NCBI GenBank assembly: GCA_029252265.1
Contig: JAQXBT010000029.1
Span: forward strand, 1-58,306
Direction of reading: 5' to 3'
DNA from: Flavobacteriaceae bacterium
Lineage (GTDB): Bacteria; Bacteroidota; Bacteroidia; Flavobacteriales; Flavobacteriaceae
DNA length: 58,306 bases
Below are positions 44,354 to 54,985 of the stretch, piece after piece. The notes beneath the pieces were generated by a model. The model saw only the letters and a program-made list of their open reading frames with translations, was not told the origin of the DNA and did no database searches. Numbering within the stretch: position 1 is the stretch's first letter; each line of letters starts with the position of its first letter. A program made the translations under genes and the position numbers.

Positions 44354-45181
44354 ATGAAGTCAAAACTTTTTAGTATTCTCGCCTTAGTATTTATTTTTTT
44401 AATCTCAACAAGTGTTAATCAAACACACGATGTTCAAGAATTTCAAGCTAAAGCTTATTATTTTTCAAAATCTAAAATGGATTTAGGAAAGTGGGGCGCT
44501 CGTCTTAGTGAGGCTCAAAAAAAAGAAGTAGAAGCCCGTATGAAAAACAGACTCGAAAAAAGTTATGTCTTATCGTTTAATAAAGAAGAATCTGTTTTTA
44601 ATGAGGAAGATCAGTTAGATGCCATTTCTGGAGCGACGGATTCTTGGGGTAAAAATTTCGCACCTGGTAGACAGTATAAAAATGTTAAAACAAATACGCA
44701 ACTTCAAGAGCAGGAGTTTTATGGAAAGAAATTTTTGATTAATGATGCGTTACAACCGATTGAGTGGCGTTTAGAATCCGAAACGAAACAAATCGGAAAC
44801 TATTCTTGTTTTAAAGCGACTGCCTCAATTCCTACGAATGACTTAACATGGTATTCCTTTTCTTGGGACAAATTGAGAAATACGAACGATTCGGACTCTA
44901 CACAGGTAAAGGAAATTAAATTAACCGAGGTAGAAGCTTGGTATGCACCTCAAATTCCAGTACGTCACGGACCTCTTGAGTACTGGGGACTTCCAGGATT
45001 GATTTTAGAAGTCAGTGCCGATAATACGACCATGCTCTGCTCAAAACTAGTTCTTAATCCTGAGGAGGTTATCGAGATTATTGCTCCCTCTAAAGGTAAA
45101 GAAGTTTCTAAAAACGAATACCAAGTAATCATCACTGAAAAAATGAAAGAATTTCGAAACAATCGAATGAGACAACGCTAA
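44354..45181 (+). CDS. GLPGLI family protein
   Basis: 275 residues with a signal peptide (KSKLFSILALVFIFLISTSVN). The family name motif is seen as EYWGLPGLILEVS near 217, and the preceding EVEAWYAPQIPVRHGP stretch is equally typical. The N-terminal part (AKAYYFSKSKMDLGK, RLEKSYVLSFNKEESVF) also matches. GLPGLI proteins are Bacteroidota-specific envelope proteins of unknown function. Direct repeats and an inverted repeat precede it, suggesting regulation. Confidence 0.94.
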   Translation: MKSKLFSILALVFIFLISTSVNQTHDVQEFQAKAYYFSKSKMDLGKWGARLSEAQKKEVEARMKNRLEKSYVLSFNKEESVFNEEDQLDAISGATDSWGKNFAPGRQYKNVKTNTQLQEQEFYGKKFLINDALQPIEWRLESETKQIGNYSCFKATASIPTNDLTWYSFSWDKLRNTNDSDSTQVKEIKLTEVEAWYAPQIPVRHGPLEYWGLPGLILEVSADNTTMLCSKLVLNPEEVIEIIAPSKGKEVSKNEYQVIITEKMKEFRNNRMRQR

Positions 45182-45466
45182 TTTTTATATAGTAACACTT
45201 ATCGCAAAGTTTAGTTTTTCTCTTGAGTTTATTGAAGTTTTGTAGTTGTTTTAGTCGTCATCCAAAATAGGATAATACAATTATATACTAAATTTTATCA
45301 AAACGTATGGAGCTTGCTTTATACATTTTTTTCATTAAATCGAAATTTATTTAAATTATTAATAGCAAATAAAGACTAGTTTTTAGAATATCGAAAAACT
45401 TAAGATGTTTTTGAGTCTTACTTATGCTTCATTTTAATTAATATTTATATTTACCCTTTATTTATG
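45182..45466. other. A+T-rich intergenic region before the arg leader
   Basis: Part of the 508-base interval between the GLPGLI gene and argA. I see no gene or stable hairpin. The only promoter-like sequence is TATATTTA at 45446-45453, one base off the TAnnTTTG consensus, without a TTG 17-23 bases upstream; it is a candidate -7 element for the arg operon. Confidence 0.4.
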
Positions 45467-45490
45467 TAACGATACAGTTGTTTATCGTTA
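45467..45490. repeat. 8-bp inverted repeat upstream of the arg leader peptide
   Basis: TAACGATA and TATCGTTA are perfect complements separated by eight bases (CAGTTGTT), 12 bases before the leader ATG. It could be an operator for a dimeric repressor or a hairpin in the 5' untranslated leader. Confidence 0.7.
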
Positions 45491-45502
45491 ACGAAATTTA
45501 TA

Positions 45503-45598
45503 ATGGACATACAAAATTTTAAAATATATATTACTCCACCGGCTAACTCTTTTAGCCCTGTAGTTGCACGTCCCCGTATTACTCGCCGTCGCCCTTAG
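45503..45598 (+). CDS. arginine-rich leader peptide of the arg operon (predicted)
   Basis: A 31-codon frame from ATG to TAG that is too short for routine gene finding. The peptide starts MDIQNFKIYITPPANSF and ends VVARPRITRRRP. Five of its last nine residues are Arg (positions 23, 25, 28, 29, 30), encoded by CGT and CGC only, in a genome where AT-ending codons dominate. It lies 91 bases upstream of the first arginine biosynthesis gene on the same strand. This is the classic arrangement of attenuation leaders (as in his, leu or trp operons), where ribosome stalling at scarce charged tRNA decides whether the operon is read. The assignment is inferred from sequence and context; I know of no described arginine leader of this type in this phylum. 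Confidence 0.78.
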   Translation: MDIQNFKIYITPPANSFSPVVARPRITRRRP

Positions 45599-45616
45599 GG
45601 TGTTTCTTTAGTTTCT

Positions 45617-45637
45617 GAACTTAGGTGTGTCCGGTTC
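45617..45637 (+). promoter_or_regulatory. possible attenuator hairpin of the arg operon
   Basis: GAAC (45617-45620) pairs with GTTC (45634-45637), extended by a T-G pair and GG/CC inside around a TGTGT loop; a T-rich tract (CTCTTTCAAACTTTTATTC) follows. A competing small stem AGTT/AACT (45610-45613 with 45618-45621) uses the same bases. Stems are short, so termination may instead be Rho-dependent. Confidence 0.35.
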
Positions 45638-45689
45638 CTCTTTCAAACTTTTATTCAACTTTTTTATTAATTATTTTAAATCTTAAATA

Positions 45690-46307
45690 ATGGAAATCAT
45701 TATTGCAGATAAATCTCATACGATTTTTTCCCAAACAATTTGTAAAGCCATTGAAGAGGCTGCACAAGTAAGAGGGACTGGGATTGCCAAGCGTTCTCCC
45801 GAGTACATCATTTCTAAAATGGAAACCAACAATGCTGTGATCGCTTTAGAGGGCGGTACTTTTGCAGGCTTTTGCTATATAGAAACTTGGAGTCACGATA
45901 AATTTGTGGCCAATTCAGGACTTATTGTGCATCCCGATTTTAGAAATCAAGGCTTAGCAAAAAAAATTAAACAGGTTGTTTTTGAGCACTCGAGAACCAA
46001 ATACCCAACCGCTAAAATATTTAGTATTACTACCGGACTAGCGGTGATGAAACTCAACTCTGCACTTGGCTACAAACCAGTTACTTTTTCGGAACTCACC
46101 GACGAACCTTCTTTTTGGAAAGGCTGTCAAACATGCAAGAATTATGATGTGCTTCAGCGCACGTCTCAAAGCATGTGTTTGTGTACAGGGATGTTATATG
46201 ATCCCAATTCCAAACCAGATAAAAATTCTGAAAAAGTAAAAGAAAAATCCTTTCTAAGACTAAAAAGTATCAAGCAAAGCTTGTTTCTTAAAAAACATAA
46301 AAAATGA
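45690..46307 (+). CDS. GNAT acyltransferase, probable first enzyme of arginine synthesis (argA-like)
   Basis: 205 residues. The GNAT acyl-CoA loop is HPDFRNQGLAKKI at 81-93, with the typical NSGLIV strand before it. Position at the head of a complete arginine operon, and the lack of another N-acylglutamate synthase gene here, indicate that it acylates glutamate (acetyl- or, given the argF' prediction, succinyl-CoA). After the GNAT fold comes a Cys motif, C146-x2-C149 and C163-x-C165 (GCQTCKN, SMCLCTG), and a Lys-rich tail, both absent from E. coli ArgA. The Cys pairs could bind metal or an effector. Its stop overlaps the argG start (ATGA). Confidence 0.82.
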   Translation: MEIIIADKSHTIFSQTICKAIEEAAQVRGTGIAKRSPEYIISKMETNNAVIALEGGTFAGFCYIETWSHDKFVANSGLIVHPDFRNQGLAKKIKQVVFEHSRTKYPTAKIFSITTGLAVMKLNSALGYKPVTFSELTDEPSFWKGCQTCKNYDVLQRTSQSMCLCTGMLYDPNSKPDKNSEKVKEKSFLRLKSIKQSLFLKKHKK

Positions 46308-47497
46308 AAAATTTAAAAAAATTAGTAATTGCCTATAGTGGTGGTTTAGATACGTCTTATTGCGCAGTATCGTTGTCAAAAGCAGGCTATGAGGTCCATG
46401 CCGTGAGTGTCAACACCGGAGGGTTTTCTAAAAACGACATCCAAACGATCGAAAAAAACGCCTATAAAATGGGGGTGTCTACATACAAAAATATAGAAGC
46501 TGTCACTACTTTTTATCAAAAAGTAGTCAAATATCTTATATACGGAAATGTATTAAAAAATAATACCTATCCATTATCCGTAAGCGCTGAACGAATTGTG
46601 CAAGCCATTGAGATTATCGAGTATGCGAAGTCAATTAATGCCCAATACATTGCACATGGTAGTACGGGTGCAGGAAATGATCAAGTACGTTTTGATATGA
46701 TTTTTCAAACACTTGCGCCAGGAATTGAAATTGTGACGCCTATAAGGGATCAAAAACTAACTAGGCAAGAAGAAATTTCTTACTTAAAATCTAATGGTAT
46801 CGATTTGGATTGGGAAAAAGCAAAGTATTCAATTAATAAAGGTCTGTGGGGCACGAGTGTTGGAGGCGATGAAACGCTCACCTCTGATTTAGCTCTGCCT
46901 GAGTCGGCCTATCCATCTCAATTAGAATCCGATGCGCCTCAAACGGTAACACTTACATTTACCAAAGGCGAGTTCACCGCATTAAATGGCGTTGAAAACG
47001 CTGCTGAAGTCAATATTCAACAGCTAAACGAAGTGGCCTCTAAGTATGCAATTGGTAGAGATATTCATGTTGGCGATACCATTGTTGGGATTAAAGGTCG
47101 TGTTGGTTTTGAGGCTGCGGCGGCACTCATTATTGTGAAAGCCCACCATCTGTTAGAAAAACATACCCTCACCAAATGGCAACTTCAACATAAAGACTAT
47201 TTATCAAATTTTTACGGGATGCATCTGCATGAAGGTCAGTATTTAGATCCCGTGATGCGCGATATGGAAGCTTTTTTAACTTCCAGTCAAAACAGTGTGT
47301 CGGGTGAAGTAGAAGTAGTGTTGAAGCCCTATCACTTTTCAATCAACGGAATTAAATCACCGCATGATTTAATGAATGCCAAGTTTGGAAGTTATGGCGA
47401 AGTTAATACCGGTTGGACCGCCGAGGAAGCCAAAGGCTTCATCAAAATTAACGGCAATCAAAACAAAATACATCAACAAGTAAATTCGGAATTATGA
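46304..47497 (+). CDS. argG: argininosuccinate synthase
   Basis: Joins citrulline and aspartate using ATP. 397 residues with the P-loop AYSGGLDTSYCA at about 8-19, the GSTGAGNDQVRFD citrulline/aspartate loop, and EMAFL-like DMEAFL near the end. The start overlaps the argA stop by 4 bases and its own stop overlaps argC (ATGA), indicating coupled translation. The second place in the operon, away from argH, is unusual compared with argGH operons elsewhere. Confidence 0.97.
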   Translation: MKNLKKLVIAYSGGLDTSYCAVSLSKAGYEVHAVSVNTGGFSKNDIQTIEKNAYKMGVSTYKNIEAVTTFYQKVVKYLIYGNVLKNNTYPLSVSAERIVQAIEIIEYAKSINAQYIAHGSTGAGNDQVRFDMIFQTLAPGIEIVTPIRDQKLTRQEEISYLKSNGIDLDWEKAKYSINKGLWGTSVGGDETLTSDLALPESAYPSQLESDAPQTVTLTFTKGEFTALNGVENAAEVNIQQLNEVASKYAIGRDIHVGDTIVGIKGRVGFEAAAALIIVKAHHLLEKHTLTKWQLQHKDYLSNFYGMHLHEGQYLDPVMRDMEAFLTSSQNSVSGEVEVVLKPYHFSINGIKSPHDLMNAKFGSYGEVNTGWTAEEAKGFIKINGNQNKIHQQVNSEL

Positions 47498-48471
47498 TAC
47501 AAGTAGGAATAATAGGAGGTGCAGGATATACCGCTGGTGAATTGATTCGATTGTTACTCGTACATCCTAAAGCTGAAATCAATTTTGTGTATAGCACTTC
47601 GAGTGCTGGCAAAAAATTAAGTGCCATCCATCAAGATTTGGTTGGCAACACCGATCACTGTTTTACCGATGTAATTAATACCAAAGTGGATGTTTTGTTT
47701 CTTTGTTTAGGACATGGAAATTCTAAAGTATTTTTAGAACAACATTCCTTTTCAAGCACGACTAAAATCATTGATTTATCTAATGATTTCCGACTGACAC
47801 AAGACTCAGTATTTCAAAACAAAGCGTTTGTATATGGATTGCCAGAATTAAATAAAACAGCGATTCAATCGGCAAAATACATAGCAAATCCAGGTTGTTT
47901 TGCAACGGCCATTCAATTGGCAATTTTACCTTTGGCAGCCAATGACTTAGTGCAAGATGCAATTCATGTCAATGCTGTGACCGGTGCCACTGGGGCAGGG
48001 ACCGCATTGTCACCAACCACCCATTTTACATGGCGAGTGGATAATTTTTCTCATTACAAAGCATTCAACCATCAACATTTAGGAGAAATCCATCAATCGG
48101 TCGATGGACTTCAAACAGATTTAAAAAGTGTTATTCACTTTATTCCCAACCGTGGCAATTTTTCAAGAGGAATTTTCGCCACTCTTTATACTAAATATGA
48201 CGGCACATTAGAGACCGCAAAAGCGCTTTTTAAAACCTATTATAATGACGCACAATTCACCATTGTTTCCGATGAGGTCATACATTTAAAGCAAGTAGTA
48301 AACACCAATAAATGCTTACTTCACTTGGAAGTGCATGACGGGAAACTACTCATAACAAGTGCCATCGACAATTTACTCAAAGGCGCCTCAGGCCAAGCCG
48401 TTCATAATATGAATTTAATGTTTGGACTCGAAGCGCATTTGGGATTACAACTAAAAGCTAATTATTTTTAA
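47494..48471 (+). CDS. argC: N-acyl-gamma-glutamyl-phosphate reductase
   Basis: NADPH-dependent reductase forming N-acylglutamate semialdehyde. 325 residues: Rossmann loop GGAGYTAGELIRLL at about 8-21, the catalytic Cys in NPGCFATA near 132, the HQHLGEI His segment, and the C-terminal NLLKGASGQAVHNMN. A stop-start ATGA overlap joins it to argG; proC follows after 12 bases. Confidence 0.97.
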   Translation: MIQVGIIGGAGYTAGELIRLLLVHPKAEINFVYSTSSAGKKLSAIHQDLVGNTDHCFTDVINTKVDVLFLCLGHGNSKVFLEQHSFSSTTKIIDLSNDFRLTQDSVFQNKAFVYGLPELNKTAIQSAKYIANPGCFATAIQLAILPLAANDLVQDAIHVNAVTGATGAGTALSPTTHFTWRVDNFSHYKAFNHQHLGEIHQSVDGLQTDLKSVIHFIPNRGNFSRGIFATLYTKYDGTLETAKALFKTYYNDAQFTIVSDEVIHLKQVVNTNKCLLHLEVHDGKLLITSAIDNLLKGASGQAVHNMNLMFGLEAHLGLQLKANYF

Positions 48472-48483
48472 AATTGACTACTT

Positions 48484-49278
48484 ATGAAAATAGCAATCAT
48501 TGGAACCGGAAATTTAGGAGGCTCAATCGCAAAAGGCCTTATTACAAATAATGCAATTACTACGTTATATCTCACTCGACGAAATGTAAAAGATTTAGCA
48601 GATTTTGAAGGGTATCAAAATGTGTTTCTAACATCTGATAACAAAGAAGCAATTCAAAAATCGGACATCATTATTTTGGCAGTCCAACCCGCTCATTTAG
48701 AAATTATATTGACGGAGATCCAACCATTTTTAACAGAAAAGCATGTGTTGATATCGACCATTACTGGTTTTTCTATTTCGAGAATTGAAAGTTTGGTTGG
48801 AACCAATCAGTTTGTCATTCGTGCGATGCCAAATACCGCCATCGCAGTCGGTAAATCCATGACCTGTTTGTGTAGCAATGACGTTGGTAAACAGCGTTTA
48901 GGAATTGCAGAAGCCATTTTTAATCGCTTAGGAACCACCATTACAATTCCAGAACAACAAATGCAAGCCGCAACGGTCGTTTGTGCAAGTGGTATTGCTT
49001 TTTGGATGCGTCTAATTCGTGCCACAACCCAAGCCGCTATTCAACTGGGGTTTGATGCTGCTGAAGCTCAAAATTTAGCAATGTTTACCTGCGAAGGTGC
49101 AGCGAATTTGCTTATTACGTCTGGCAATCACCCAGAACAAGAAATTGACCGAGTGACCACCCCAAACGGGTGTACCATAGAAGGACTTAATGAGATGGAA
49201 CACAAAGGATTAAGTTCGTCACTTATCCAAGGAATGGTCGCTTCTTTTGAGAAAATTAACAGTATAAAAGCCCACTAA
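48484..49278 (+). CDS. proC: pyrroline-5-carboxylate reductase
   Basis: Reduces pyrroline-5-carboxylate to proline with NAD(P)H. 264 residues with the Rossmann loop IIGTGNLGGSIAKGL at 4-18, AVQPAHLE, the VIRAMPNTAIAVGKSMTCL segment near 112, and the C-terminal TTPNGCTIEGLNEME signature. It is embedded in the arginine operon between argC and argD, 2 bases before argD, so proline synthesis would be co-regulated with arginine synthesis. Confidence 0.96.
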   Translation: MKIAIIGTGNLGGSIAKGLITNNAITTLYLTRRNVKDLADFEGYQNVFLTSDNKEAIQKSDIIILAVQPAHLEIILTEIQPFLTEKHVLISTITGFSISRIESLVGTNQFVIRAMPNTAIAVGKSMTCLCSNDVGKQRLGIAEAIFNRLGTTITIPEQQMQAATVVCASGIAFWMRLIRATTQAAIQLGFDAAEAQNLAMFTCEGAANLLITSGNHPEQEIDRVTTPNGCTIEGLNEMEHKGLSSSLIQGMVASFEKINSIKAH

Positions 49279-49280
49279 TT

Positions 49281-50405
49281 ATGAGTTTATTTGATGTTTA
49301 TCCACTCTTCGATGTAACGCCGGTAAGAGCCAAAGATGTTTATGTTTATGATGACAAAGGCACTCAGTATTTGGACCTTTATGGAGGTCACGCCGTGATT
49401 TCAATAGGGCATTCCCATCCTGTGTATGTCAATGCATTGACGAATCAACTTCAGAAAATTGGGTTTTATAGTAATGCGGTTCAGAATCCACTTCAAACAA
49501 AATTAGCCGATCGGATTGAACAAGTTTCGGGTTGTAAAGACTATACTTTGTTTATGTGTAGTTCTGGTGCCGAAGCCAATGAAAACGCCTTAAAATTAGC
49601 GTCATTTCACACGAATAAAGCAACAATACTCGCATTTGATAATTCCTTTCATGGGCGTACTTCTGCGGCGGTAGCCGCAACCGATAATCCAAAAATTGTT
49701 GCGCCTTTAAATGCCCAACAACAAGTTCGGTTTTTGCCGTTAGGAAATTTAGAATTGGTTGAGGCCACCTTAAAATCGGAACCTATTTGTGCCATTATTA
49801 TTGAGTGCATTCAAGGAGTTGGAGGTCTTGATGAAAGCACCACAGAATTTTATAAAGGACTGGAGTCCTTATGTCATAAATACAACACGGTTTTAATTGC
49901 CGATGAAGTACAATCGGGTTTTGGTCGATCTGGTGACTTTTTTGCATTTCAAAAACATGGATTAACGCCTCACATTATCTCGTTAGCGAAGGGTATGGGC
50001 AACGGATTCCCTGTCGGAGGGATTTTGATTCATCCATCCATAAAAGCGTCTTATGGCCTTTTGGGAACGACCTTTGGAGGAAACCATCTGGCGAGTACGG
50101 CAACCTTGGCCGTTTTGGATGTTTTAGAAGCTGAAAATTTGATGCTAAATACTCAAAAGATGTCTGAATATTTCACTCAAAAAGCCAAGTCGATCCCACA
50201 ACTCAAACAGCTCAAAGGGCGTGGTTTGATGCTCGGCCTTGAGTTTGATTTTCCAGTTGCCGCCCTTCGAAAAAAATTACTTTTTGATCACTTTTTATTT
50301 ACTGGAAGCTCCAAAAATCCAAACTTGATTCGAATTTTACCACCCCTCACAATTCAAGAAAAACATATTGATTTATTTTTTAATGCTTTAGCACAAGAAT
50401 TATGA
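49281..50405 (+). CDS. argD: N-acylornithine aminotransferase
   Basis: PLP-dependent class III aminotransferase forming N-acylornithine from the semialdehyde. 374 residues; the PLP Lys is in SLAKGMGNG near 236, the Asp in ADEVQSGFGRSG, and SSGAEANENALKLA binds the cofactor phosphate. It ends with an ATGA overlap into argF'. Succinylornithine and acetylornithine aminotransferases cannot be told apart from motifs. Confidence 0.96.
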   Translation: MSLFDVYPLFDVTPVRAKDVYVYDDKGTQYLDLYGGHAVISIGHSHPVYVNALTNQLQKIGFYSNAVQNPLQTKLADRIEQVSGCKDYTLFMCSSGAEANENALKLASFHTNKATILAFDNSFHGRTSAAVAATDNPKIVAPLNAQQQVRFLPLGNLELVEATLKSEPICAIIIECIQGVGGLDESTTEFYKGLESLCHKYNTVLIADEVQSGFGRSGDFFAFQKHGLTPHIISLAKGMGNGFPVGGILIHPSIKASYGLLGTTFGGNHLASTATLAVLDVLEAENLMLNTQKMSEYFTQKAKSIPQLKQLKGRGLMLGLEFDFPVAALRKKLLFDHFLFTGSSKNPNLIRILPPLTIQEKHIDLFFNALAQEL

Positions 50406-51337
50406 ACCACTACATAACTATTAACGACCTCCCATCTATTTCATCTGCTGTAGCCGAGGCGATTGCTTTAAAGTCTGATGCATATAAACATCGAAGTTTA
50501 GGGGCACAAAAAACCTTAGTGATGTTGTTTTTTAATGCCAGTCTTCGCACGCGATTAAGCACCGAAAAAGCCGCGAAGCAGTTAGGAATGGACGTGATTG
50601 TTTTAAATGTGACGGATGCCTGGCAACTAGAATTTGAATCGGGTGTGGTTATGCAACTTGACAAATCGGAACACGTCAAAGAAGCTGCTCAAGTGATTTC
50701 TCAGTATTGTGATATTTTAGCCGTGCGAGCGTTTCCGTCTCTAACAGATAAAGACAAGGATATATCAGAATGGATTATCAAAAGTTTTGTCAATTATGCG
50801 ACGGTTCCAATCGTGAATATGGAAAGCGCAACAGGACACCCACTTCAGGCCTTAGCCGATGCGATTACGATTGAAGAATTAAAAACTAAAAAAACTCCTA
50901 AAGTCGTGCTTTCATGGGCACCACATCCCAAAGCATTGCCACATGCAGTAGCCAATTCGTTCATCGAAATGATGCAATCTATTGAAGTTGATTTTAGCAT
51001 CACGCACCCAGAAGGCTACGACTTAAATCCCGAAATTGTAAAAGACTCTAAGGTTATATACAACCAAGAAGAGGCTCTAAAAGAAGCTGATTTTGTCTAT
51101 GTTAAAAATTGGAGTAATTATAAAGAGTATGGAACAATTACTTCTGAAGATTCCAGCTGGATGATGACTAAAGAAAAATTAGGCACTGCCAAATTTATGC
51201 ATTGTTTACCGGTTCGACGAAATGTGGTGGTCGAAGATGCGGTGTTGGATAGTGACCAATCGGTGGTAATTGCACAATCCAATAATCGAACTTTTGCAGC
51301 GCAACTCGTCTTGAAAAAAATTCTTGAAAATGGATAA
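50402..51337 (+). CDS. argF': N-succinylornithine (or N-acetylornithine) carbamoyltransferase
   Basis: 311 residues. Carbamoyl phosphate motif SLRTRLST at 47-54, HPLQALADAI, and HCLPVRRN near 280. The sequence matches the Bacteroides fragilis SOTCase family, not standard ornithine carbamoyltransferase (no SMG loop; has the MESATGHPLQ and SWAPHPKALPHAV stretches). The specificity position (P90 in B. fragilis SOTCase, E92 in Xanthomonas AOTCase) is S89 here (DKSEH). Published mutants of AOTCase with Ser at this place gain SOTCase activity, so succinylornithine is the predicted substrate. The stop overlaps the argB start region. Confidence 0.92.
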   Translation: MNHYITINDLPSISSAVAEAIALKSDAYKHRSLGAQKTLVMLFFNASLRTRLSTEKAAKQLGMDVIVLNVTDAWQLEFESGVVMQLDKSEHVKEAAQVISQYCDILAVRAFPSLTDKDKDISEWIIKSFVNYATVPIVNMESATGHPLQALADAITIEELKTKKTPKVVLSWAPHPKALPHAVANSFIEMMQSIEVDFSITHPEGYDLNPEIVKDSKVIYNQEEALKEADFVYVKNWSNYKEYGTITSEDSSWMMTKEKLGTAKFMHCLPVRRNVVVEDAVLDSDQSVVIAQSNNRTFAAQLVLKKILENG

Positions 51338-52118
51338 TTTAAAACCACTCAAAATCATCAAGATCGGAGGAAATGTGATTGATGATGCAGCAGCACTTTC
51401 GTTATTTTTAAACCTATTTTCATCCATTGAAGGTCCTAAAATTCTGGTTCATGGTGGCGGAAAATCAGCCACCGCATTAGCCCAGAAAACGGGGTTAGAG
51501 GTTCAAATGATTAATGGCAGACGGATCACTGACGCCGCAACTTTAGATCTCATTACGATGGTCTATGCGGGAAAAATCAACAAAACGATTGTTGCTCAAT
51601 TACAAGCCTTGGATTGTAATGCACTTGGATTTACTGGTGCAGATGCTAATACCATCACTTCAATTAAACGCCCGGTATCAAGCATAGATTACGGGTTTGT
51701 AGGTGATGTTAAAAACGTAGAAACGTCGATTTTAGAAGTGTTACTAAATCAGGGTGTTTCACCCGTTTTTTGTGCGATAACCCATGATAAAAACGGACAA
51801 CTATTAAACACCAATGCAGATACGATTGCTTCTGAGTTAGCCATTGCGTTTGCAACTAAATTTAACGTTGAATTGTATTATTGCTTCGAAAAAAAGGGTG
51901 TTTTAAAAAATATTAATGACGACGATTCTGTCATTCAAACGATCACGAAATCCTCCTATAAAAAATTATTAGACGCCCAATTAATTTTTTCTGGGATGCT
52001 CCCAAAATTAAATAACTGTTTTCATGCCTTAGACCATAAGGTTTCTAAAGTGTGTATCGGAAAACCAGAAATGTTGCTTGATTCAAAAGCAATTTTCACA
52101 ACGCTTACAATACTATGA
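51330..52118 (+). CDS. argB: acetylglutamate (N-acylglutamate) kinase
   Basis: 262 residues from the ATG at 51330, which lies inside the last codons of argF' (8-base overlap); a TTG two codons earlier is unlikely. The amino acid kinase fold is plain: KIIKIGGNVIDD at 8-19 with the catalytic Lys, HGGGKSATALA, NGRRITDAATLD and CNALGFTGADAN. The protein starts at the first beta strand, without the N-terminal helix of hexameric, arginine-inhibited kinases, so it resembles the arginine-insensitive E. coli enzyme. The stop overlaps argE (ATGA). Confidence 0.96.
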   Translation: MDNLKPLKIIKIGGNVIDDAAALSLFLNLFSSIEGPKILVHGGGKSATALAQKTGLEVQMINGRRITDAATLDLITMVYAGKINKTIVAQLQALDCNALGFTGADANTITSIKRPVSSIDYGFVGDVKNVETSILEVLLNQGVSPVFCAITHDKNGQLLNTNADTIASELAIAFATKFNVELYYCFEKKGVLKNINDDDSVIQTITKSSYKKLLDAQLIFSGMLPKLNNCFHALDHKVSKVCIGKPEMLLDSKAIFTTLTIL

Positions 52119-53179
52119 CCCTAGAAAATTTAACAGCCTCTGCCATTCAATTATTAAAAGACTTAATTGAAATCCCTTCATTTTCATCTGAAGAAGACTT
52201 GACCGCCGCCCGTATTGAGCGCTGGTTTCAACAGTATGACATTCCGTTTCAACGCTCTCAAAATAATATTTGGGCAACCAATGCCGATTTTGATGCGTCC
52301 AAACCAACCCTCCTTTTAAATTCACATCACGATACCGTAAAACCGAATAATGGCTACACAAAAGATCCCTTCAATGCGCAAGTAGAAGATGGAAAACTGT
52401 TTGGACTTGGGAGTAATGATGCAGGTGGTTGTTTGGTGTCATTGCTGGCAACTTTCACGCATTTCTACGCCCAAAAAAATCTAAATTACAACTTAGTTAT
52501 TGTCGCCTCCGCAGAAGAAGAGAGTAGCGGGGCTGCTGGTTTAAATAGCATGCTGTCCATCATTCCCAAAATTGATGTGGCCATTGTCGGAGAACCGACC
52601 TTAATGCAACTCGCGGTGGCCGAAAAAGGCTTGGTGGTTTTTGATGCACTCGTTAAAGGCACGCCTGGGCACGCTGCGCACCCGAATGACGATAACGCCA
52701 TTTATAATGTGATTGAGGTGTTACAATGGTTCAAAGAGTACCAATTTGAAAAAGATTCCGTGTCCTTAGGCCCTGTAAAAATGACGGTCACACAAATCAA
52801 TGCAGGCAAGCAACATAATGCGATTCCAGCAGGGGTAGAGTTGGTGGTGGATGTGCGAGTGAATGATCAATATAGTAATAAAGAGATTGTGGCTATTCTT
52901 CAAAAAGATGCGCCTTGTGATTCGATTATACCAAGAAGTTTACGTCTAAACTCCTCCTCAATTCCTGTAGACCATCCATTGATTCAGGCTGGTATTGCGT
53001 TAGGACGCGACCCCTATGGGTCACCAACGTTATCCGATCAATCGGTTTTGAGTTGCCCGTCTCTAAAATTAGGGCCCGGCGATAGTACGCGCTCACACAC
53101 CGCAGATGAATTCATTTACGTCAACGAACTCGAAGAAGGTGTTGCATTATATATTCAATTATTAACTAAAATATTATAA
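52115..53179 (+). CDS. argE: N-acylornithine/N-acylcitrulline deacylase (ArgE-like M20 peptidase)
   Basis: 354 residues. Zinc-binding motifs NSHHDTVKP near 68, GLGSNDAGG near 99 and the catalytic AEEESSGAAG near 130 identify an M20 family amidohydrolase. With a carbamoyltransferase acting on an N-acylated substrate, the natural reaction here is removal of the acyl group from N-acylcitrulline to give citrulline for ArgG. Its presence instead of argJ shows a linear pathway without acyl recycling. argH follows after 2 bases. Confidence 0.94.
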   Translation: MTLENLTASAIQLLKDLIEIPSFSSEEDLTAARIERWFQQYDIPFQRSQNNIWATNADFDASKPTLLLNSHHDTVKPNNGYTKDPFNAQVEDGKLFGLGSNDAGGCLVSLLATFTHFYAQKNLNYNLVIVASAEEESSGAAGLNSMLSIIPKIDVAIVGEPTLMQLAVAEKGLVVFDALVKGTPGHAAHPNDDNAIYNVIEVLQWFKEYQFEKDSVSLGPVKMTVTQINAGKQHNAIPAGVELVVDVRVNDQYSNKEIVAILQKDAPCDSIIPRSLRLNSSSIPVDHPLIQAGIALGRDPYGSPTLSDQSVLSCPSLKLGPGDSTRSHTADEFIYVNELEEGVALYIQLLTKIL

Positions 53180-53181
53180 GT

Positions 53182-54456
53182 ATGAAACTTTGGGATAAAG
53201 GCATTTCAATTGATAAATTTATTGAAAAATTCACGGTAGGAAATGATCGAGAGATCGATCTTAAAATTGCAACTTATGACATTCAAGCCTCGTTGGCACA
53301 TGCACAAATGTTGGTTAAAATTGGGCTGCTAAATTCGGAAGAACTCACAGCGATTGAAGTGGTGCTTGATGCGCTCCAATCCCAGCTAAGCGAAGGCACT
53401 TTTGTGATTGATGCCCAGTTTGAGGACATCCATTCAAAACTCGAATATGAGCTCACCAAAGCGTTGGGGGATGCGGGTAAAAAAATCCATACCGCGCGCT
53501 CCAGAAATGATCAAGTTTTGGTGGCCTTACAATTGTATTACAAGGCCAATTTAGGGTTGATTCAACATAAAACCAAAACGTTTTTTGAAACTTTAATTGC
53601 TTTAGCAGACACGCATAAATCAGCCTTATTGCCTGGTTATACGCATTTGCAAGTGGCCATGCCCTCGTCTTTTGGATTGTGGTTTTCGGCTTATGCCGAA
53701 TCGCTTATCGATGATGTCTATGTTTTGCAAGCCGCTCAAAAAGTGGTCGATCAAAATCCGTTAGGGTCGGCAGCAGGTTATGGGAGTTCGTTTCCAATAG
53801 ATAGAGAGTTTACGACCAAAGCCCTTGGTTTTAAAACGCTCAAATACAATGTGGTCGCGGCACAAATGAGTCGTGGAAAAAATGAACGCATTATCGCATC
53901 TGGGTTGGGAAATTTAGCCAATACCCTTGGTAAAATGGCGATGGATATTTGTTTGTATATGAGTCAAAATTTTGATTTTATTGGGTTTCCAGAAGCATTG
54001 ACAACGGGAAGTAGTATCATGCCTCACAAGAAAAATCCCGATGTTTTTGAATTGATTCGAGGGAAGTGTAACAAACTCCAGAGTTTAGAAACGGAGATGC
54101 TTTTGATTACCAATAATTTGCCGAGTGGCTACCACCGCGATTTTCAGTTATTAAAAGAAAATATGATTCAGGGTTTTGAAGAGTTGGAAGCGATTTTAGA
54201 TATTTTTAATTATGCCATTCAGCAAATACAAGTGAAAAAAATTGATTTGAAAGATCCTAAGTACCAATACTTATTCACCGTGGACAGTATTAATACCTTG
54301 GTGATGCAAGGGGCGTCGTTTAGAGAAGCCTACCAGATTATTGGCGCACAAGTACAGGAAGGAACTTATAAATCCGATACCAGCATCCCACACACCCATT
54401 TAGGGAGTATTCACAATTTGGCATTGGATGAAATTAGTGCTAAATATCCTGTGTAG
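53182..54456 (+). CDS. argH: argininosuccinate lyase
   Basis: Releases arginine and fumarate. 424 residues; the fumarase-superfamily signature GSSIMPHKKNPD with the catalytic Ser loop lies near 277, HTARSRNDQV near 103 and TRHLQ-like GYTHLQVAMPSS near 151. It is about 35 residues shorter than E. coli ArgH but complete in motifs and ends with ISAKYPV, so I regard it as intact. It closes the operon; no clear terminator follows. Confidence 0.96.
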   Translation: MKLWDKGISIDKFIEKFTVGNDREIDLKIATYDIQASLAHAQMLVKIGLLNSEELTAIEVVLDALQSQLSEGTFVIDAQFEDIHSKLEYELTKALGDAGKKIHTARSRNDQVLVALQLYYKANLGLIQHKTKTFFETLIALADTHKSALLPGYTHLQVAMPSSFGLWFSAYAESLIDDVYVLQAAQKVVDQNPLGSAAGYGSSFPIDREFTTKALGFKTLKYNVVAAQMSRGKNERIIASGLGNLANTLGKMAMDICLYMSQNFDFIGFPEALTTGSSIMPHKKNPDVFELIRGKCNKLQSLETEMLLITNNLPSGYHRDFQLLKENMIQGFEELEAILDIFNYAIQQIQVKKIDLKDPKYQYLFTVDSINTLVMQGASFREAYQIIGAQVQEGTYKSDTSIPHTHLGSIHNLALDEISAKYPV

Positions 54457-54670: not shown

Positions 54671-54985
54671 CTAATTCCTTTTTAATTTTATTGGATTCTG
54701 TCGAGTGTCAAAAATGTCAACTATTTTTATAGTCTCAATCTCCTCATTTAAAGCGTAAATTATTTTGTAATTAGTAACTATTAGACGTCTATAATTTTGT
54801 TTTCTACCTTCTAAAAGTTCCTCTTTATCTCCAATTAAAGGGTTTTTAACAAGCACTTCGACATTATCTCGGATTTTAAACATTATACTATGAGCAACTT
54901 TTTTATTAACTTTTTTTGCATAGTAGTTAAATATCTCATCAAGTTGGTATTCTGCAAAATTTGACCAAATTATTGTGTAATTCAT
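54671..54985 (-). CDS. RelE/ParE family toxin
   Basis: 104 residues. The RelE/ParE fold is recognisable: YTIIWSNFAEYQLDEIFNYYAKK, PLIGDKEELLEGRKQNYRRLIV and IVDIFDTRQNPIK. Such toxins either cleave mRNA on the ribosome or poison gyrase; conserved catalytic residues are not decisive here, and the YRRLIV and DTRQ features fit ParE-like members somewhat better. Its ATG overlaps the antitoxin stop by one base (TAATG), the usual coupling. Confidence 0.88.
   Translation of the reverse strand: MNYTIIWSNFAEYQLDEIFNYYAKKVNKKVAHSIMFKIRDNVEVLVKNPLIGDKEELLEGRKQNYRRLIVTNYKIIYALNEEIETIKIVDIFDTRQNPIKLKRN

Follow-up and report, generated by a model that had tools for sequence, protein, structure and literature searches.

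A predicted arginine leader peptide, widespread among Flavobacteriaceae, is accompanied by a new conserved RNA element

The window, a 58,306-nt stretch of DNA from a marine Flavobacteriaceae bacterium (GenBank assembly GCA_029252265.1, contig JAQXBT010000029.1), carries a nine-gene arginine operon, all on the forward strand, which begins with a gene for an argA-like GNAT acetyltransferase and ends with argH (Table 1). The GNAT gene is the first gene of the operon, which the leader presumably controls, and the carbamoyltransferase gene of the operon (argF') is of the N-acetylornithine type. Upstream of the GNAT start at 45690 lies a 508-nt interval (45182-45689) that, leader frame aside, contains no gene. 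The leader frame has five Arg among its last nine residues and stops 91 nt short of the GNAT gene; its coordinates, its 31-codon length, the five Arg, the 91-nt gap and the 508-nt interval, all given in an earlier note on this DNA, were rechecked and are correct. A GLPGLI-family protein (TIGR01200) is encoded at 44354-45181, 5' of the interval. At the other end of the operon, directly past argH on the opposite strand, a 104-residue frame (54671-54985) shows by eye a likeness to RelE/ParE-type toxins.

Table 1. Coordinates of the leader region and the arginine operon in the window
Feature	Position	Strand	Description
Candidate promoter -7 box, TATATTTA	45446-45453	+	Near the Bacteroidota consensus TAnnTTTG; from sequence and congener alignment
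Arginine leader frame, MDIQNFKIYITPPANSFSPVVARPRITRRRP-stop	45503-45598	+	Proximal type; 31 codons; frame and Arg codons conserved
Hairpin 0, GGCTAACTCTTTTAGCC	45541-45557	+	Within the coding region; pairing among congeners
Covariance model R1 match	45587-45641	+	Scores 51.7 bits; spans hairpins 1 and 2 and the U-rich linker between them
Hairpin 1, CGCCC-TTA-GGGTG	45590-45602	+	Stop codon in and beside the loop; terminator-like by simple scan
Hairpin 2, GAACT-TA-GG-TGTGT-CC-GGTTC	45617-45637	+	Covarying outer stem, bulged A, UGNGU loop
GNAT acetyltransferase gene (argA-like)	45690-46307	+	Operon gene 1
argG-argC-proC-argD-argF'-argB-argE-argH	46304-54456	+	Downstream operon genes

The leader frame is real and not a product of chance. 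When the 300 nt upstream of the GNAT gene were shuffled in blocks of two bases, the 12 C-terminal residues of a leader frame never contained five Arg in 20,000 shuffles and contained at least four in 0.09% of them, which together with the conservation of the frame rules out a chance origin. Frameshifts between close strains had been named as one observation that would count against a leader; the 31-codon frame is instead kept in all 13 same-genus loci (GNAT-anchored, comprising those with a full upstream region, window counted), and it ends in RRRP in 12 of them and in RCRP in the other. Among these congeners, pN/pS by Nei-Gojobori counts was 0.29 over codons 18 to 28 compared with 0.76 over codons 2 to 20, and the Arg codons 25 and 28 have undergone synonymous changes only. 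This conservation of the frame suggests that the leader is translated.

The same holds beyond the genus. Eighty loci were fetched from named genomes by GNAT similarity alone, the leader playing no part in the choice; the genera include Winogradskyella, Gelidibacter, Polaribacter, Tenacibaculum, Lacinutrix, Psychroflexus, Zobellia, Flagellimonas, Nonlabens and Christiangramia, among others. All 80 loci proved to have a leader frame whose last 12 residues include two Arg or more (8% of shuffles), and in 53/80 they include four or more (0.13% of shuffles). The search of relatives that the earlier note had proposed thus bears out its central claim, an Arg leader peptide ahead of an arg operon, which is strongly supported: the Arg codons persist and the rest of the peptide, mostly 26 to 31 codons long, turns over between genera. 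Across 123 distinct peptides, counting back from the C terminus, Arg makes up 11 to 61% at positions -4 to -10, compared with 0 to 3% at most positions between -13 and -26. The leaders also differ in codon choice from the operon of the window, with CGY (CGT/CGC) making up 253 of 312 leader Arg codons (81%, last three codons excluded) versus 25 of 62 Arg codons in that operon. The codons of the final Arg-Arg-Pro are conserved as nucleotides, so that the conservation of the terminal Arg could partly be an RNA constraint. The codons from -4 upstream sit outside hairpin 1, and the Arg enrichment there is therefore not due to that fold.

A candidate promoter was found upstream of the frame; a transcription start downstream of 45598 would have counted against the leader. 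In the genus of the window the candidate -7 box reads TATATTTA/G and stands about 50 nt upstream of the ATG of the leader, and congeners L004 and L011 carry TATATTTG at the same place. A perfect TAnnTTTG box is positioned 13 to 17 nt upstream of the leader ATG in 34 loci, which implies that their transcripts should begin at or just before the ATG. Leader and operon would thus be carried on one transcript.

We considered whether the peptide itself could be the sensor, with free arginine or a related metabolite binding the ribosome together with the peptide and arresting it at Arg-Arg-Pro-stop, much as TnaC and SpeFL act. A C-terminal Pro before the stop slows release, as in TnaC, and RRP directly precedes the stop in 117 of the 123 distinct peptides. 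However, the positions that would lie in the exit tunnel turn over across genera, only the last few residues being conserved, the length of the peptide varies, and the conserved CCG/CCT-TAR codons are equally explained by hairpin 1. Recognition of the nascent chain is accordingly an improbable account, albeit the best of the alternatives to Arg-codon sensing.

The earlier note was right about the peptide and overlooked a conserved RNA element around it. Hairpin 1 follows directly on the Arg codons and reads CGCCC-UUA-GGGUG in the window and CGCCC-GUAA-GGGUG in most genera, with compensatory changes in loci of the L021 type. A U-rich, G-poor linker joins it to hairpin 2, which consists of an outer stem of 5 to 7 pairs, a bulge whose last base is A, inner GG/CC pairs and an invariant loop, UGNGU. 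Psychroflexus and relatives (L230, L237, L255 and L276) carry a compensatory substitution of the inner pair, GA/UC for GG/CC. Of the cells in alignment A5, 95.8% pair, and 26 cells in hairpins 1 and 2 have changed on both sides, compared with 2.8 in shuffles (0/500), counts that are biased towards the structure since alignments of this kind are fitted to it; sliding the partners lowered every measure. Hairpin 2 was also followed by hand, free of any structure fit, and a stem of at least 5 pairs was seen in 85 of 86 cases, with GG/CC replaced by GA/UC in four. A further hairpin, hairpin 0, lies within the coding region and pairs in 92% of cells among congeners versus at most 54% with slid partners. 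The genera with tandem leaders described below have a well-supported counterpart, similarly spaced and unrelated in sequence, and hairpin 0 is weak in the single-leader group.

No known RNA family could be assigned to the element. The curated models of Rfam, including Bacteroid-trp, Flavo-1 and T-box, gave no match over the window at gathering score, and a search of 45182-45720 at E values up to 10 returned implausible matches only. The conserved RNA element around the leader is absent from Rfam and is new, and its hairpin 2 is small and has a loop that does not vary.

The distribution of the element was followed with R1, a covariance model built from eight sequences. R1 matched 78 of the 80 GNAT-selected loci and, among 299 Flavobacteriaceae genomes, 199 at E ≤ 1 and about 174 at E ≤ 0.01; among 395 genomes across the phylum, matches at E ≤ 0.01 were confined to Flavobacteriaceae. 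Every one of the 134 elements located by regular expression stands directly upstream of an arg operon on the same strand, the next gene being GNAT in 132 and argG in two. A close search of 15 genomes gave no strong R1 match other than the arg copy; the element occurs once per genome, and in the genome of the window GGTGNGTCC has a flanking stem of at least 5 pairs in the arg copy only. The idea that hairpin 2 serves other operons as a site of attenuation was rejected, because only the arg copy is stemmed in the genome of the window and the weak extra R1 matches in the 15 genomes all have E > 0.018. Comparison among relatives shows the coding frame, the conserved Arg codons, hairpins 1 and 2, and the restriction of the element to the arg operon.

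Twenty genomes, nearly all chosen because they lack an R1 match, were checked for argG. Ten of the 20 (G022, G025, G027, G029, G033, G063, G078, G079, G082 and G581) had no match to argG and may be arginine auxotrophs. Genus g146, which we guess to be Flavobacterium, does contain argG, with no R1 element and with a different, Arg-poor leader. Its loci L277 to L280 have a leader frame of the type MNKISLHITSLSRTNSPITSPEVRTLSL-stop, with two or three Arg and with CGG codons; a perfect TACTTTTG box stands immediately before it. In other Flavobacteriales families, L027, L028 and L030 have Arg-bearing frames ahead of the arg operon and no hairpin 2.

In many genera the proximal leader is preceded by another, distal one that is likewise rich in Arg and about 22 to 24 codons long (e.g. 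MKNLKNKIRCTIPGLPVRSRRRF-stop; L016 to L020, L051, L080, L101, L110 and others). The distal leader comes with a separate -7-like box, a U run follows its stop after about 35 nt, and the 5' arm of its terminator-like stem lies within the peptide codons. The arms differ by genus and remain paired (ATACGT/ACGTAT, ATAGAGT/ACTCTAT, AATAGTG/CACTATT), with a mean helix of 9.8 pairs compared with 7.0 in shuffled controls, the real helix exceeding its control in 40 of 45 cases. The distal leader therefore looks like a plain intrinsic-terminator attenuator. The proximal leader in these genera resembles that of the window, starting at GTG, TTG or ATG and mostly running for 30 to 31 codons, and the two leaders appear to share a transcript.

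Might the RNA element be the regulator, as an arginine riboswitch or a protein-binding leader, and the short frame its by-product? In favor of this, the bulge, inner pair and loop of hairpin 2 are invariant and confined to the arg operon, and hairpin 2 has no role in simple stalling models. However, the Arg enrichment reaches codons -4 to -12, beyond hairpins 1 and 2, and start codon, promoter spacing and frame are all kept. In addition, many genera have the independent Arg-rich distal leader, and in the other families (L027, L028 and L030) Arg-bearing frames occur without hairpin 2. This explanation is even less probable than arrest by the nascent chain.

ArgR-type repression had been taken as the usual assumption for this phylum, and this does not hold here: a search with PF01316, the ArgR family, gave no match in any of 60 Flavobacteriales genomes, G000 (88.9% complete) among them, and matched 9 of 14 control genomes, one of them a Bacteroides. 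The absence of ArgR means that some other control is expected, and the conserved DNA does sit downstream of the promoter, but a DNA operator for an unidentified repressor in place of ArgR is very improbable, as the arms of hairpin 2 vary with paired changes on both sides, a pattern that suits a stem in RNA and does not suit a DNA site of fixed sequence.

Arg sensing by the leader is strongly supported by the comparison of sequences, and ribosome-mediated control of the arg operon from its 5' leader through the Arg codons is the reading that we favor, with a probability of roughly 0.8. The element is probably a switch that turns the arg genes on when ribosomes run short of arginine, in cells in which ArgR was not found. 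What follows, from the stalling to the sense of the response and its output, is our inference. Transcription would begin upstream of the leader frame and a ribosome would translate the 31-codon peptide, its progress over the Arg codons at the 3' end reporting the supply of charged tRNA-Arg. With arginine plentiful, the ribosome would reach the stop codon and depart, and hairpin 1, which bears the stop, would fold. With arginine scarce, the ribosome would stall at the CGY codons and cover the 5' arm of hairpin 1, leaving hairpin 2 exposed; with hairpin 1 blocked in this way, expression of the nine downstream genes would rise.

The output is probably premature transcription termination. The earlier note had proposed that stalling controls read-through into the operon; the Arg leader stands, and the read-through is a predicted step, as no convincing intrinsic terminator was found after the leader in the window. 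Hairpin 1 of the window is terminator-like by a simple scan, but its stem is short, at 5 pairs, and relatives do not consistently share the U-rich tail. Hairpin 2 was rejected as an intrinsic terminator since no consistent U run follows it. Because no consistent intrinsic terminator was found, we suggest that termination is possibly Rho-dependent; alternatively, the output may run through translation or mRNA decay. A scan for an antiterminator or another covarying pairing alternative to the hairpins, which was noisy, found none, and among long-range covarying pairs only hairpins 0 and 2 stood out in the noisy scan. We therefore say that the leader works like a classical terminator/antiterminator attenuator, not that it is one. 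RNAalifold proposed for the congeners that loop 2 pairs with the region of the first Arg codons. This was rejected as a general feature: 96 loci have A at the variable position of the loop, and in 66 of these the true base pairs worse than a swapped one.

Ribosome stalling alone does not explain the invariant loop of hairpin 2. The loop contains an anti-Shine-Dalgarno-like AGGUG, with no start codon at a suitable distance, and T-box-like capture of a tRNA 3' end by GGU is unlikely given the change from GG/CC to GA/UC. Tentatively, the leader could receive two arginine inputs, codon sensing by the peptide frame and a separate arginine-specific RNA signal at hairpin 2, recognized by a protein or ligand, with the stop-codon loop as the switch point. 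We regard this extension as doubtful; if true, it would make the arg leader a two-input, ArgR-independent control system not seen elsewhere.

Flavobacteriaceae are abundant in the sea and in soil, and we found no account of how they control arginine synthesis. A leader peptide with an RNA element in most of the genera tested offers a concrete, testable answer, and arginine biosynthesis would join the amino-acid operons thought to be leader-controlled, in a phylum with barely described cases. In the open-licence literature we found no description of an arginine leader of a biosynthetic operon, the work there concerning twin-arginine, speF and carA.

The Bacteroid-trp RNA motif is associated with tryptophan genes. 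This motif (RF01692) is a structured, probably cis-regulatory RNA of Bacteroidota (PMC2864571), and it differs from the present element in giving no match to the window. According to a paper of 2010, leader-peptide systems were known until then from Proteobacteria and Actinobacteria only, to which the paper added Firmicutes (PMC2965389). One proposal comes from the same family: for Flavobacterium psychrophilum, leader-peptide attenuation by short peptides upstream of amino-acid biosynthesis operons has been proposed, and the elements named in the main text of that paper include pheA and hisG and not arginine (PMC9723704). The novelty asserted in the earlier note is narrower for this reason, the part that stands being that no description for arginine was found. 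In Pseudomonas aeruginosa the carA leader likewise encodes a leader peptide before a gene serving arginine synthesis, although in another operon and another phylum; pyrimidine control is reported to act possibly via attenuation and arginine control at transcription (as cited in PMC4997734).

The leader orf34 of Salmonella speF is a precedent for Arg codons: ribosome pausing at low arginine changes the folding of the RNA and the output of the gene, with Rho and mRNA decay involved (PMC6386406). Like the leader of the window, orf34 is a short frame with consecutive Arg codons, and its use of Rho and decay rather than an intrinsic terminator is a precedent for a Rho-type output here; unlike it, orf34 is gammaproteobacterial and controls ornithine decarboxylase, not arginine biosynthesis (PMC6386406). 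The orf34 peptide is conserved as a domain, DUF2618, and we saw no resemblance to the two hairpins of the window.

In the his, trp, leu, thr and phe leaders of Proteobacteria a frame rich in the end product precedes the biosynthetic operon and the regulatory codons are conserved. The leader of the window resembles these classical attenuators in that the end-product codons near its 3' end are conserved and the rest of the peptide is not. It differs in using Arg, in having no clear terminator/antiterminator pair, in carrying its stop codon in a hairpin loop and in having the additional, invariant hairpin 2. The distal leader of the related genera is closer to the classical attenuators than the element of the window, and the tandem arrangement provides a natural comparison between a distal, terminator-like leader and a proximal hairpin leader responding to the same signal.
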